Source: Natronorubrum halalkaliphilum | GTDB lineage: Archaea > Halobacteriota > Halobacteria > Halobacteriales > Natrialbaceae | Length of the DNA: 49,122 bases | Assembly: GCF_009834785.1 (NCBI RefSeq) | Contig: NZ_WUYX01000002.1 | Coordinates: forward strand, 1-49,122 | Direction: 5' to 3' | In this document: piece after piece, positions 2,555-49,122 of the stretch | Layout: each line of letters opens with the position of its first letter | How positions within the stretch are numbered: position 1 is the first letter of the stretch | The notes under the pieces: generated by a model | Seen by the model: the letters and a program-made list of their open reading frames with translations, nothing else | What the model was told of the DNA's origin: nothing | Database searches by the model: none | Program-made: the position numbers and the translations under genes

Positions 2555-2814
2555 TTCTTCTGGCTGGTCTATTCGGGCGATATCGGTAGTGTGAGATCGT
2601 CTATGTGGCCAATCCCAACTATTTAAATCCCATAGTGCTATATAGAAAATTCGCAGTTATCCAAGGTTCAGGTGTGAATAACTCCGAACCGCGACCGTGC
2701 GTACATGTTCTGTGAGAACAACGGTTGACCCTGGTGACGTCTCCGGTCACTGATAGCGAACATGATGACCTCCTCGAGCAAGGTTTTTGATGCTGCCTAC
2801 CAGAAGAGGGCATA

Positions 2815-3834
2815 ATGCGTGCCATCGTTACCGACGGGAATAACGACATCTGGGAGGAAGACCGCGAGCGGCCCGTTCCGGGCGCCGGGGAAGCGCTCGT
2901 TCGAGTCCGAGCAGTCGGTATCTGCGGCAGCGATATCGGTCTGATTCGGGGCGAAGGGCCGCCGTGGACCGACTACCCCCTCGTTCCAGGGCACGAAGTT
3001 TGTGCCGAAGTCGTCGAACTCGGTCCCGGCATCGACTCGCTTTCGGTCGGCGACCGTGTCTCCCTCCACGGCTTCGTCTACTGTGGGACCTGCCGGGCGT
3101 GTCGCGAGGGCCGATACTACCAGTGTACCAGCCTCGAGGAAATCGGGTTTACCATCGACGGCGGCTACCGCGAGTACGCCGCCTTCCCCGTCGAAACCCT
3201 GCGGCCGCTCGAGGACGAAATCAACGACCTCGAGGCGACCCAGATCGATTCGGCGGGCTGTACATTGCACGCGCTGAAACGGGTCGAAACCTCATTTACT
3301 GACACAGCAGCGGTATTCGGCCCGGGCTCGTTGGGCCTGTTCGGCGTCCAACTCCTCAAAGCGAAGGGGATCGACGATATCGTTCTTACCGGCCTCCACG
3401 ATGAACGGTTAGCCGTCGGCGAGCGCTACGGCGCGGTGGAATCGATCAACATTCGCGAAACCGATCCCGCTAACGCGATCGACGACTACACGGACGGGAC
3501 TGGTATCGATCTGTGTCTCGAGGCCGCGGGCGCCGGGGACGTCGTCAATACCTGTCTGACGGTTGCGGGAACACAAGGATCGGTCATCCTCACCGGAGTC
3601 TTCGATGGGTCGCGAGAGATCGATCCGAACGATATCGTTGCGAAGGAACTCGAGGTCGTCGGCAGCGTGACTGCAGCCAACGCCGTGGACGAAATCGCGG
3701 CACTGTTCCGCACCGGCGACCTCTCAGTAGACGGCATCGTGACCCACGAATTCGACCTCGCGGAGTACGAAACGGCACTCGAGACCGTACGGAACCGCGA
3801 CGACGGCGTCATCAAAGCCGTCCTACGACCTTGA
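2815..3834 (+). CDS. Zinc-dependent medium-chain alcohol/polyol dehydrogenase
   Basis: A 339-residue MDR-superfamily dehydrogenase. Catalytic-zinc motifs GICGSD (Cys37) and PGHE lie in the N-terminal GroES-like domain, and a four-Cys structural-zinc loop follows (CGTCRACREGRYYQC, about 93-107). The Rossmann domain carries a GPGSLGLFGVQLL nucleotide-binding loop near 171. The family includes sorbitol, threonine and galactitol dehydrogenases using NAD(P). It opens the catabolic locus and faces a PLP enzyme that may act on sugar-derived amino acids, so an oxidised sugar or sugar-alcohol substrate is plausible, as is oxidation of lactate-derived or other alcohols. Substrate cannot be read from sequence. 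ATG start; no overlapping neighbours. Confidence 0.85.
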   Translation: MRAIVTDGNNDIWEEDRERPVPGAGEALVRVRAVGICGSDIGLIRGEGPPWTDYPLVPGHEVCAEVVELGPGIDSLSVGDRVSLHGFVYCGTCRACREGRYYQCTSLEEIGFTIDGGYREYAAFPVETLRPLEDEINDLEATQIDSAGCTLHALKRVETSFTDTAAVFGPGSLGLFGVQLLKAKGIDDIVLTGLHDERLAVGERYGAVESINIRETDPANAIDDYTDGTGIDLCLEAAGAGDVVNTCLTVAGTQGSVILTGVFDGSREIDPNDIVAKELEVVGSVTAANAVDEIAALFRTGDLSVDGIVTHEFDLAEYETALETVRNRDDGVIKAVLRP

Positions 3835-4017
3835 GTTCCCCCGCACTGCAGGCATCGCCTGTGCAGCCCGTTCCTTACAGCAAAAATGATCGGCGCGGAT
3901 CGGAAACCCGGAAGCCGTGAAAACGAGCGTGGCTGTATCGAACTCAAGAGTGTCGGCTCATACCTCGTGAGGAGTGTCTAGACGGTTCAGCAGTTCCCAC
4001 AGTCGGAGGTGATGTGT

Positions 4018-5220
4018 TCAGAGATACGTTCGAAGACGCTCCAGAACGTATTCGGCTTCGTCGTCCGTGAGACACATCGGATTGATCGTCAACGCGTCTG
4101 CATCGAGGTCGTCCGCACCGACGTAAATCCGGGGATGTTCCGTTCGAAGGCCACGGACGATATCGACCGCACTCGAATCGGCGACTGAGGCATCGACCGA
4201 GACGACAACTTCCGGTGCCACAGAGGTCTTTTCGGCCGCAGTCAGTCTCGTCTCGACTCCCGGAGACTCTGCAAGCTCCTGGGCAATTCGTTCGGATCGC
4301 GCGCGCCAGACCGTGGCGTTCTCGTCGTGATCGTCTTCGAGGAAGGCCGTGAGTGCGGTAATGAGCCCGACGAGTTCCTCTTTCCCGACTTTCATGCCTC
4401 GGCCGATGCCCTGTCTGGGAACGCCACCCAGTTCCTCGACATCGAGCAACGACGACGGCGGCGTCCACGCGGGTTCGGCTGCGTGCATATCGAGGTGTTG
4501 TGCCGCGACGGATCGAATGAGGTCCTCACGACCAGCGAGTATGCCGGTCGTCTGCGGGCCGCGAATCGCTTTACCGCCGCTGAACGCGACGAGGTCGACA
4601 CCAAGATCGACGAATCGGTTGAGATTCGTGACCGGCGGGAGTTCCGCTGCGGCGTCGACGATCACCGGAACGTCGTGGTCGTGAGCGATTTCGACGACGG
4701 TCTCGAGCGGTGGATCGGTGTAGGACTTTTGCATGTACGCGACCGCGGCCGTCTCCTCGGAGATTGCCCGATCGATCTCCCAGGGTTCGGTGTTGACCGA
4801 CCCGGTGCCGAGGTGTGCATCGTTCGTGCCGACATCGACGATGGACGCACCGGCGACACGGTAGGCGTGATCGTATCCAGAGCGGTGGGTTCGCGGAATG
4901 ACGATTTCGTCCGCCAGTCCGTCCGTGTCCGGTAGTTGAGCCATCGCCTCGAGATCCGTCCCGGCGATTGCCGCCGCCGCAGCCATCGTCAGACAGGCGC
5001 TGGCACCCGAACAGACGTAGCCCGCCTCGGCGCCGGTCGCGTCCTGAATCAGCGTCGATGCTCGCGCTTGCAGATCGGAGATCCGAGCGAACCCGTCGGC
5101 CGCTCGCTGCATCGCATCGGCGGCTTCCGGTCTGATTCGGCTCCCACCGATTCGCGTTTTCGTCCCCGTGGCGTTGATCACGGGTGATACCCCAATCTCT
5201 TCGTAGATCGAGTCGGTCAT
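4018..5220 (-). CDS. SelA/DgaE-like PLP enzyme, candidate amino-sugar-acid ammonia lyase
   Basis: A 400-residue fold-type-I PLP enzyme. The N-terminus INATGTKTRIGGSRI (about 15-29), the cofactor-binding Asp in VIVDAAAELPP (Asp189) and the Schiff-base lysine in SGGKAIRGPQ (Lys217) match the selenocysteine-synthase-like (SelA-like) branch. That branch includes D-glucosaminate-6-phosphate ammonia-lyase (DgaE), which beta-eliminates the 3-OH of a 2-amino-2-deoxy-aldonate to give 2-keto-3-deoxy-gluconate-6-P and ammonia. A real SelA role is unlikely, because haloarchaea lack this bacterial selenocysteine route. Neighbours are a deacetylase, a dehydrogenase and RidA, all consistent with amino-sugar-acid breakdown. 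It diverges from the PIG-L gene, and the AT-rich gap 5221-5300 holds likely promoters for both. Family confidence is high; substrate is inferred. Confidence 0.8.
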   Translation of the reverse strand: MTDSIYEEIGVSPVINATGTKTRIGGSRIRPEAADAMQRAADGFARISDLQARASTLIQDATGAEAGYVCSGASACLTMAAAAAIAGTDLEAMAQLPDTDGLADEIVIPRTHRSGYDHAYRVAGASIVDVGTNDAHLGTGSVNTEPWEIDRAISEETAAVAYMQKSYTDPPLETVVEIAHDHDVPVIVDAAAELPPVTNLNRFVDLGVDLVAFSGGKAIRGPQTTGILAGREDLIRSVAAQHLDMHAAEPAWTPPSSLLDVEELGGVPRQGIGRGMKVGKEELVGLITALTAFLEDDHDENATVWRARSERIAQELAESPGVETRLTAAEKTSVAPEVVVSVDASVADSSAVDIVRGLRTEHPRIYVGADDLDADALTINPMCLTDDEAEYVLERLRTYL

Positions 5221-6026: not shown

Positions 6027-7039
6027 GTGATGACCTCGAGCGAGGAACGAGCTATTTCGGCGTTCGAAACGTCGAACACGCTGAACGGGACCTCGAGCGG
6101 TTCGATGAAGCAGGGCTGAACGCAGTCTTGCACACCTTCAGCGAGCGCGATTACGAGTACTATCAGGGGACGATGGAGCGTATCGTCGAGAAAAGTCACG
6201 ACCGCGGCTTTACCGTCTACGTCAACCCCTGGGGAGTCGGTCGCGTTTTCGGCGGCGAAGCCGTGTCGGAGTTTATCGGCCGTCGCGCCGACGCCAGACA
6301 GGTGTTATCTACCGGAGAGGGGGTTCCCGCCGCCTGTTTTTCGAATCCGACGTTTCGTCGGTTCGTTCGCAACTGGACGAAAGCCGCCGTGGAGACGGGG
6401 GCCGATGTCGTGTTCTGGGACGAGCCACACTGGTTCATCGCCGACTGGGCAGATATTTCGGTGCCCGAGACTGCGTGGACCTGCCACTGCGAGCACTGTC
6501 AACGGGCATTCGAAGCGCAGTACGGAGAGTCGCTGCCGACCGATCCGACACCGCAGACGGACGCGTTCAGAGAGGACATGTTGCTCGAATTTTTGGACGA
6601 GATGATGGAACTCGTACACGGTCTGGGAGCACGAAACGCCGTCTGTCTGTTACCAAGGGAGGATACCGAGCACGGTCTCTCCGACTGGGAGTCGCTCGCA
6701 GCGAACGAGTTCCTCGATATTTTTGCGACCGATCCGTACTGGGCCGCGTTTCCCCACGCCACCGGGCCGGAATCGTTCGTGGGCGAGTACACCGACCGTG
6801 TCGTCTCCCTGGCGAACGAACACGACGTCGACAGTCAGATCTGGATTCAAGGATTCCGCCTTGACGACGAGCCGTCGACGATCGAGGCCGTCAAAACGGC
6901 AACCGAAACTGCCGTCGAAGGCGGCGTCGACAGCGTCTTCATGTGGGGCTATGACGGCTGTCGGTCCATTTCGAGCATCGCCTGTGACGATCCCGATGCC
7001 GTCTGGAACGCGTACCTCGAGACGGTCCCGTCGTCGTAG
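6023..7039 (+). CDS. Glycosidase-like (beta/alpha)8 protein with CxCxxC motif
   Basis: A 338-residue cytoplasmic protein with no signal or membrane segment. The pattern of beta-strand ends (VYVNPWGVGR, DVVFWDEPHWF about 130-140, AVCLLPRED, DIFATDPYW, SQIWIQGF, SVFMWGYDGC) fits a TIM-barrel glycoside-hydrolase-like fold. The acidic pair in FWDEPHW at a strand end is the best catalytic candidate. A CHCEHCQRAFEAQYG motif follows, of the CxCxxC...F..xYG type seen in poorly characterised GHL families (GHL6-like), and could bind a metal. It overlaps the deacetylase by four bases and shares its motif type with the gene at 9023. Function unknown; an acetylated amino-sugar glycoside is a reasonable guess from its partner. 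Confidence 0.7.
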   Translation: MSDDLERGTSYFGVRNVEHAERDLERFDEAGLNAVLHTFSERDYEYYQGTMERIVEKSHDRGFTVYVNPWGVGRVFGGEAVSEFIGRRADARQVLSTGEGVPAACFSNPTFRRFVRNWTKAAVETGADVVFWDEPHWFIADWADISVPETAWTCHCEHCQRAFEAQYGESLPTDPTPQTDAFREDMLLEFLDEMMELVHGLGARNAVCLLPREDTEHGLSDWESLAANEFLDIFATDPYWAAFPHATGPESFVGEYTDRVVSLANEHDVDSQIWIQGFRLDDEPSTIEAVKTATETAVEGGVDSVFMWGYDGCRSISSIACDDPDAVWNAYLETVPSS

Positions 7040-7080
7040 TCGAACAGTTCCCGCTCGTCTCCTTTCCCGTTCGTTGGCCG

Positions 7081-7923
7081 CTATTCGCCGTCCGCCGTCT
7101 CGGCCGAGTGGACGTGTACGGAGAGTGCCTGAACGACGGTCGCGAGTTCCTCCGCCAATCGATCGAACAGCTCGCGGCCTTTCGCCGCCGATGCGAGGTC
7201 CGGGTCGCCAATCGCTCCTGAGGAGGAGTACGACTCGAACGGCCGATAGACCGAGAGCGGCCCGGAATCGAGCAAGTCTGTATCGCCGTACACGAGCGGT
7301 TCATCAAGCGGCGTCGCCTCCCGTGGCCCATCGCGAACCAGGTCGGGAAAGAGATGCAAAAGCAGCGACGTCTCGAACTCGCCACCGTGGGCCATCCCAC
7401 CGGGATCGCTGTCTCGAATCTCGTCGATGAACGGTTCGGCCAGCGAAAAGTAGGTGAGCCCCGTCACTGTCACGTCGGGGTGTTCAGCCCCGATTTCACT
7501 GACCGCAGCCCCGACGAGTGGACCATTCCCGCCGTGACCATTGACCAGCAACACGGCATCGAACCCGTTCTCGAGCGCGCTCGAGACGATGTCGGTCAGG
7601 ACGGCCAGTGCGGTGTCAAAGGAGAGCGTTAGCGTACCCCCAAACGACAGATGGTGGGGTGAGTAGCCGCTCCAGACGGGCGGCGTGACGAGAGCGGGAC
7701 ACTCCTCGACGAGTGACACGCCGCACATTGTAACCGCAGACGCGAGGAGCGTATCGGTTCCGACGGGAAGATGTCGCCCGTGCTGTTCGACACTGCCGAC
7801 GGGAACGAGTACCACCGATCCATCCTGTTCGCCGATCTCGCGGGTCTCGCCGGCCGTTTTGCTGAACCACGACTGCGAGTGTGTAAACAGATCACCAATC
7901 ACAAGCGGTGCCTCTCGACACAT
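7081..7923 (-). CDS. Creatininase-family amidohydrolase
   Basis: A 280-residue member of the creatininase/ArfB/MftE family of metal-dependent hydrolases acting on cyclic amides, formamides or peptide ends. The hallmark metal-ligand segments are present: SVEQHGRHLPVGTD (about 44-57, Glu/His/Asp), VNGHGGN (about 128-134) and GMAHGGEFETS (His and Glu, about 174-184). ATG start at 7923. Haloarchaea use a relative (ArfB) in F420/riboflavin synthesis, but this copy is embedded in a sugar-catabolic locus next to RidA, which suggests a degradative role. Opening of a lactam or amide formed from an amino-sugar acid is chemically attractive but unproven. Confidence 0.85.
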   Translation of the reverse strand: MCREAPLVIGDLFTHSQSWFSKTAGETREIGEQDGSVVLVPVGSVEQHGRHLPVGTDTLLASAVTMCGVSLVEECPALVTPPVWSGYSPHHLSFGGTLTLSFDTALAVLTDIVSSALENGFDAVLLVNGHGGNGPLVGAAVSEIGAEHPDVTVTGLTYFSLAEPFIDEIRDSDPGGMAHGGEFETSLLLHLFPDLVRDGPREATPLDEPLVYGDTDLLDSGPLSVYRPFESYSSSGAIGDPDLASAAKGRELFDRLAEELATVVQALSVHVHSAETADGE

Positions 7924-7960
7924 CTACAAAAAGGTTCGTTCACGCCACCGGCCGACGTGA

Positions 7961-8335
7961 TCAGACGGAGGCAACGACTTCGATTTCGACCCCGATATCG
8001 ATCGGCAGGTCCTCGACTTGCACTGCACTCCGAGCCGGATACGGGTCGGTCATGTACTCGCCGTACACCTCGTTGATCGCGTCGTAGTCGTCCATATCCT
8101 GCACGAATACGGTGACTTTGACGACGTCCTCGAGAGAGGCGTCTCCCGCTCGAAGCACCGCGTCGATGTTCTCGAGCGTACGCTCCGTCTGGGCGGCGAT
8201 ATCGCCGTCGATGATCTCGCCGGTGTCGGGATCAACTGGTCCCTGCCCGGAGACGTAGATTCGATCGCCGTCTCGAACGCCCTGTGAGAACGGACCGATA
8301 CTGGCTGGTGCATCGTCTGTCGATAATGGGTGCAT
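7961..8335 (-). CDS. ridA: RidA-family enamine/imine deaminase
   Basis: A 124-residue YjgF/YER057c/UK114 protein of standard length. The conserved Arg sits in PYPARSAVQVEDLP (about 98-111) with the Glu in VEIEVVAS near the C-terminus, and the GPFSQGV and YVSGQGPVDPDTGE segments are typical. RidA hydrolyses 2-aminoacrylate-type enamines and imines released by PLP-dependent eliminases. It ends close to the start of the creatininase-family gene on the same strand (37-bp gap) and shares the locus with a PLP ammonia-lyase-like enzyme, so it probably drains the enamine that enzyme makes. The TATA region lies just to the right of 8335. Confidence 0.92.
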   Translation of the reverse strand: MHPLSTDDAPASIGPFSQGVRDGDRIYVSGQGPVDPDTGEIIDGDIAAQTERTLENIDAVLRAGDASLEDVVKVTVFVQDMDDYDAINEVYGEYMTDPYPARSAVQVEDLPIDIGVEIEVVASV

Positions 8336-31800: not shown

Positions 31801-31824
31801 AGAAACAGCGGACACACTGGTGTT
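31801..31824 (-). repeat. Isolated copy of the right-end origin-like motif
   Basis: Read on the minus strand, AACACCAGTGTGTCCGCTGT matches the ~20-bp motif found five times at 48651-48944 (core ACC..xGTGTCCGCTGTT). No second copy is visible within this intergenic stretch. 31284-31926 holds no gene I can support; a small GAAGCT/AGCTTC hairpin lies at about 31321-31338 after the ACR3-family gene. Confidence 0.5.
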
Positions 31825-48650: not shown

Positions 48651-48944
48651 AACACCACAATGTCCGTTGTTATTTTGATGTTTTGTGGCAAGAACTGCGG
48701 ACATCATGGAGTAGGGTGAGAGAAGAGAGAAATAGAAATAACAGTTTTGGGGGGCTGAAAGGCAGGAAAGCCGGGAAAGAATTGAATCCATTTCGAAAAC
48801 ACCACCGTGTCCGCTGTTCGGGCGTGTCACCACTACTCTTCTTGCGAGAAACACGAGAAAGGCGGCCGGTAAACACACCACCGTGTCCGCTGTTCGTGAG
48901 GAGGGAAGTTTCCTTTGCGGAGAGAACAGCGGACATAGTGGTGT
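48651..48944. other. Candidate replication-origin repeat cluster (five ~20-bp motifs)
   Basis: Five copies of a motif with core ACCACxxTGTCCGCTGTTC: forward at 48651 (AACACCACAATGTCCGTTGT), reverse at about 48691-48709, forward at 48798-48819 (AACACCACCGTGTCCGCTGT), forward at 48873-48895 (ACACCACCGTGTCCGCTGTT) and reverse at 48923-48944 (AACAGCGGACATAGTGGTGT). The last two form a facing pair, as do the first two. Between them lie an AT-rich AGAAATAGAAATAACAG stretch and a run of six G at 48749-48754. This layout resembles origin-recognition boxes, but the motif is not one I can match to a named ORB. 48476-49122 has no supported gene; orc1/cdc6 would be expected just outside the window. Confidence 0.55.
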
Positions 48945-49122
48945 ATCTAGCAGCCTAACGCAGACTGTTGCTACCTCTCAGTTGCCGAACGCGACCAGCA
49001 AAAGAATCGGCGAATCAGACGTATGTAACGGCATGGTAAGTATCAGTACCTCACAAATCAGTCTCAGCTAACCGGCGCTGAAGTGTGATTTACCGACGAG
49101 TCAGAGCCGAATCCGTTCTCCG

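Follow-up and report, generated by a model that had tools for sequence, protein, structure and literature searches.

Inverted boxes at the right end of contig C41

The stretch of DNA analyzed here (the window; 49,122 bp) is the entire contig C41 of the 4.56-Mb, 72-contig genome of Natronorubrum halalkaliphilum. Its right end holds five copies of the motif ACCACNNTGTCCGCTGTTC, three on the plus and two on the minus strand, in less than 300 bp, followed by a 5-bp target-site duplication (AGTAT, 49039..49043) and by the end of an ISH3-family element that is cut by the contig end (49044..49122). Box copy 1 (ACCACAATGTCCGTTGTTA, 48654..48672, plus strand, two mismatches to the motif) faces the degenerate copy 2 (TCCATGATGTCCGCAGTTC, 48692..48710, minus strand, three mismatches). 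Copy 3 (48801..48819, plus strand), copy 4 (48877..48895, plus strand) and copy 5 (48924..48942, minus strand) are exact, the last two being the left and right halves of a second facing pair, 47 bp apart from start to start. A 32-nt inverted repeat, 48864-48895/48924-48955, turned up independently of the motif scan. A sixth, weaker match on the minus strand (31803..31821, two mismatches), 17 kb from the cluster, is possibly a stray box.

Such a cluster is not expected by chance. Dinucleotide shuffles of the whole window gave an expectation of 0.15 copies in all 49 kb, with a maximum of two, while a Markov-1 simulation of the last 3 kb gave 0.0075 copies against the five observed, and no simulation reached two. 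The first-pass annotation of this DNA, made from the letters alone, was right about the position of the cluster and its three-forward, two-reverse arrangement. It had also placed the facing pairs around AT-rich DNA and a G-run. There are indeed two such pairs (48654/48692 and 48877/48924), but only the first encloses AT-rich DNA; the DNA between the two pairs has a GC content of 43–59%, and the G-run (at about 48747) sits there, inside neither pair. The window boxes end in GTGGTGT and lack a G-run, unlike the halophile origin recognition box (ORB), which has a G-string. The cluster contains an initiator-specific box in several copies of both orientations; an AT-rich unwinding stretch between facing boxes is found not here but at a second site, on contig C67.

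The probable junction between contigs C41 and C67

Searching the whole genome with up to two mismatches, we found motif clusters on C41 and C67 only; one further exact copy lies on contig C50, and the remainder are scattered and carry mismatches. The motif is very unlikely to be the ordinary dispersed repeat that the first-pass annotation had considered as the alternative to an origin, and the genome-wide search detected no copies near any other Orc gene of this genome. C67, a 4351-bp contig, encodes a complete Orc1/Cdc6 of 419 amino acids (2598-3857, minus strand), directly upstream of which are three boxes (3899, 3908 and 4165) plus a degenerate copy near 3961. These surround the most AT-rich DNA of that region (62–67% AT in windows that begin between -270 and -210 from orc), and the copy at 4165 has a G-run, GTGGGGTGGG, at the box end. 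No orc gene was found on C41.

The exact copy on C50 faces a degenerate partner at a distance of 121 bp (85704/85825, within C50:85704-85844), and the two sit between a MaoC-like and a CBS-domain-like gene on a contig without an orc gene. By blastn, this orphan pair has the box alone in common with the origin loci of relatives. It may have remained from an origin since lost, or be a stray site for titration.

The first-pass annotation had suggested looking for an orc1/cdc6 gene to the right of base 49122, and it appears to be the gene on C67, past the ISH3-type element that ends the window. The terminal sequences of C41 and C67 (C67:4273-4351) have CAGTAC(C/T)TCACAAA in common and both read inwards, and are therefore opposite ends of a single multicopy element. 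Five other sites carry the final 79 bases of C41, and the final 79 bases of C67 are found, exactly or nearly so, at five further sites; nearly all of these sites are contig ends. An ISH3-family transposase adjoins a relative's copy of the terminal sequence. The partner of the target-site duplication adjoins the element end at the right end of C67, reading AGTAT when reverse-complemented. A 5-bp duplication is by itself weak evidence of adjacency, being common to two insertions in this genome: the right ends of C43 and C50 bear the same pair, so that the duplication does not discriminate between C67 and C50 as the partner of C41. However, homologues of the carbamoyltransferase-like gene at the C43 end and of the SCO1-like gene at the C50 end lie about 2 kb or less apart in two genomes of the same genus (G002 and G007), in the divergent orientation that a C43–C50 join predicts. 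This synteny pairs C43 with C50, the only rival partners, and leaves C67 as the neighbor of C41. A direct comparison of C41 and C67 by blastn matched only the motif and chance words. From three indirect lines, namely target-site duplication, synteny and geometry, we infer that C67 adjoins C41 in the genome with one ISH3-family element between them, which gives the window cluster an orc1/cdc6 gene as its neighbor. What looks like an orphan origin at the end of a contig can thus arise as an artefact when an insertion element breaks the assembly.

Positions 1-86, at the left edge of the window, likewise represent one end of that ISH3-family element, paired with contig C37 by the duplication AGAAT; the whole 49-kb contig is therefore flanked by two element copies.

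Box positions and the associated Orc1/Cdc6 family

At the joined empty site, the window boxes are located at -800, -762, -653, -577 and -530 relative to the orc start, and the C67 boxes at -326, -122, -69 and -60. The pair formed by copies 4 and 5, now 577/530 bp upstream of orc, aligns with an upstream pair in relatives: the boxes of N. bangense lie at -583/-537, -326 and -69, those of N. thiooxidans at -621/-574, -334, -69 and -60, and those of N. sulfidifaciens at -611/-564, -324, -69 and -60. The spacing of this pair is 47 bp here, in N. thiooxidans and in N. sulfidifaciens, and 46 bp in N. bangense. Even the odd first pair of the window, with its TTGTTA and GCAGTTC variants, has a counterpart in Natrinema versiforme (-698/-661 of orc). 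In a multiple alignment of the upstream regions, the core aligned, as did the facing pair in most relatives, the alignment being unreliable farther out. For the last genes of the window, encoding a UspA-like and a TRAM-domain-like protein, we found no neighborhood in common with the origin loci of relatives; the box cluster therefore goes with the origin rather than with those genes.

Close homologues of the C67 Orc are encoded by megaplasmids and other contigs of Natrialbaceae, Haloferacaceae, Haloarcula and others. The C67 protein is 85–93% identical to its Natrialbaceae homologues and 72% identical to Cdc6K of the Haloarcula hispanica plasmid pHH400; in a tree that included the other Orcs of this genome, the C67 protein, pHH400 Cdc6K, an Orc of pHM500 and the other homologues formed one group (100/100 support). 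Allowing three mismatches, we detected boxes at all 36 close-homologue loci, 4 to 18 at each, and, in the same scan, none at the loci of two distant Orcs (31–32% identity). The motif is exclusively associated with the C67-type Orc family, which bears out the first-pass proposal that its copies are archaeal origin-recognition boxes. Because the boxes are specific to this family, the window cluster is most likely bound by the Orc1/Cdc6 encoded on C67.

Among the loci surveyed, one in G002 (C1:736000-752000) has the same plasmid-type origin and orc gene on a 3.35-Mb contig that is presumably the main chromosome; the origin therefore seems to move between replicons. One same-genus genome has two related orc genes side by side in opposite orientation (6948-8198 and 10024-8813), whose products share 78% and 61% identity with the C67 Orc. 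Tandem boxes occur downstream of orc in Halobaculum saliterrae, about 34 bp apart (down+264 to +468), and in an uncultured haloarchaeon, about 39 bp apart (down+277 to +551); these are array-like versions of the outlying cluster.

The boxes of the 36 loci differ according to position. A CCC in the 5' flank was present in 45 of 66 core copies, as against 15 of 91 copies in the upstream cluster and 11 of 75 downstream. We set the position classes from the distances seen, which may have misplaced a few copies, and the 36 loci are mutually related. The window boxes belong to the outlying class, which mostly lacks the C/G string and lies outside the AT-rich core. Facing pairs at these loci (n = 24) are spaced 30 to 85 bp apart, most often 36–47 bp, and relatives have similar copies downstream of orc and as far as about 6 kb away. 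The window cluster is a true, conserved feature and a new example of a known origin type, rather than a new type.

Role of the outlying boxes and comparison with known origins

We consider it highly probable that the window cluster represents the outer upstream box array of an oriP-cdc6K-type origin, with core and orc1/cdc6 gene on C67. Orc1/Cdc6 produced from the C67 gene would most likely bind the window boxes, which are partly arranged as facing pairs; the origin core would consist of the C/G-string boxes on both sides of AT-rich DNA on C67; and the outlying boxes would hold initiator away from this core, so that initiation would most likely be damped and timed, as proposed by analogy with oriC2D and oriC2 of H. 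hispanica. In that species, 11 boxes spread over 722 bp make up oriC2D, which lies downstream of cdc6E, has no ARS activity of its own, lowers the activity of oriC2 and can be removed only together with oriC2; the authors proposed that control of this type is widespread in haloarchaea (PMC3936714). As no outlying cluster offers a better precedent than oriC2D, we favor titration, with an enhancer as its main rival. Titration by the window boxes, taken alone, is nonetheless a claim on which we are evenly divided, since it would transfer to five upstream boxes what was seen for 11 downstream boxes of another Orc family. It is a more tentative idea still, and one we would not yet bet on, that the family as a whole has two box classes, C/G-string core boxes opening the origin and outlying boxes without the string, frequently paired face to face, acting as a conserved built-in brake. 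If true, the insertion element has displaced the brake from its origin here, providing a natural distance experiment.

The outlying boxes may instead be a positive part of the origin, either extra Orc1/Cdc6 loading sites or an enhancer required for efficient firing. The nearly constant distance between the upstream facing pair and the core in several Natrialbaceae would fit this, and PMC3936714 describes a G-rich inverted repeat that acts as an enhancer at oriC1 of H. hispanica. However, the C/G string is mostly absent from the upstream copies, an insertion element parts the boxes from the core here in a living strain, and similar copies occur downstream and kilobases away in relatives; we therefore regard this role as rather unlikely. 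Less likely again is that the facing pairs serve incompatibility or handcuffing, linking replicon copies via Orc1 at paired sites. The prevalence of 36–47-bp spacings speaks for it, as does the incompatibility of an oriC2 plasmid with wild-type H. hispanica mentioned in PMC3936714, but spacing varies across the family and, not being constant, disfavors a rigid dimer.

The window cluster is probably not a complete origin. Its facing boxes, its intergenic position and some AT-rich DNA inside the first pair speak for the first-pass reading of a complete, distinct origin, but that reading now seems highly improbable: C41 lacks an orc gene, C67 holds both the AT-rich core and the G-string boxes, relatives have this cluster together with the core, and the comparable oriC2D has no ARS activity alone (PMC3936714). 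That the motif is an ordinary transcription-factor operator or dispersed repeat unrelated to replication, as the orphan pair on C50 might suggest, is scarcely credible given that copies gather at a single Orc family at every locus, with core boxes fixed around an AT-rich stretch, and were not found near the other Orc genes of this genome.

Returning to the titrating outer array that we prefer, the consistent core/outlying split makes titration testable in culturable haloarchaea such as Haloferax and Haloarcula, and a widespread origin family that has received little study now has an initiator–box pairing. The presence of homologous initiators and these boxes at 36 loci in several haloarchaeal families stands against the view, expressed in 2014, that conservation of oriP-cdc6K is restricted to Haloarcula (PMC4441112).

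Literature searches with the motif string returned nothing relevant, and we found no paper on Natronorubrum replication origins. The first-pass annotation could not match the motif to a known haloarchaeal ORB, but it belongs to the megaplasmid oriP-cdc6K box family, and a near-identical sequence has been published as the Origin II box, TAACAGCGGAAACAGTGGGGTGGGGGGGT, found in Halorubrum lacusprofundi (Hla_3512) and in Haloquadratum walsbyi (HQ2959A) (PMC3528665). On C67, the core copy GAACAGCGGACACAGTGGGGTGGGTGTGT matches it, G-string included, except for one center base (GGAAAC for GGACAC), whereas the window copies lack the G-string. On Haloferax mediterranei pHM500, likened here by protein alone, one Orc of the same tree group is 74–75% identical to the C67 Orc; it is either cdc6L, of a dormant origin, or cdc6M, of an active one (PMC4595724).

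Like oriC2D, the window cluster is intergenic and close to the initiator gene but not part of the origin core; unlike it, oriC2D is downstream of its gene and belongs to another Orc family, and titration was tested genetically there while it is read from sequence here. The closest counterpart is oriP-cdc6K of pHH400 (PMC3528665, PMC3936714), which has the same box at -687, -600, -563, -455 and -75 and also downstream of its gene, arranged as core boxes upstream of orc with outlying boxes on both sides. This origin has demonstrated ARS activity (PMC3528665) and could not be deleted in H. hispanica (PMC3936714). The two origins have the same box and initiators of one clade, but these initiators are 72% identical, below the 80% family cut-off of PMC3528665, and we therefore do not claim strict membership in the published oriP-cdc6K family. 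A further difference is that, in N. halalkaliphilum, the upstream arm is split from the core by an insertion element.
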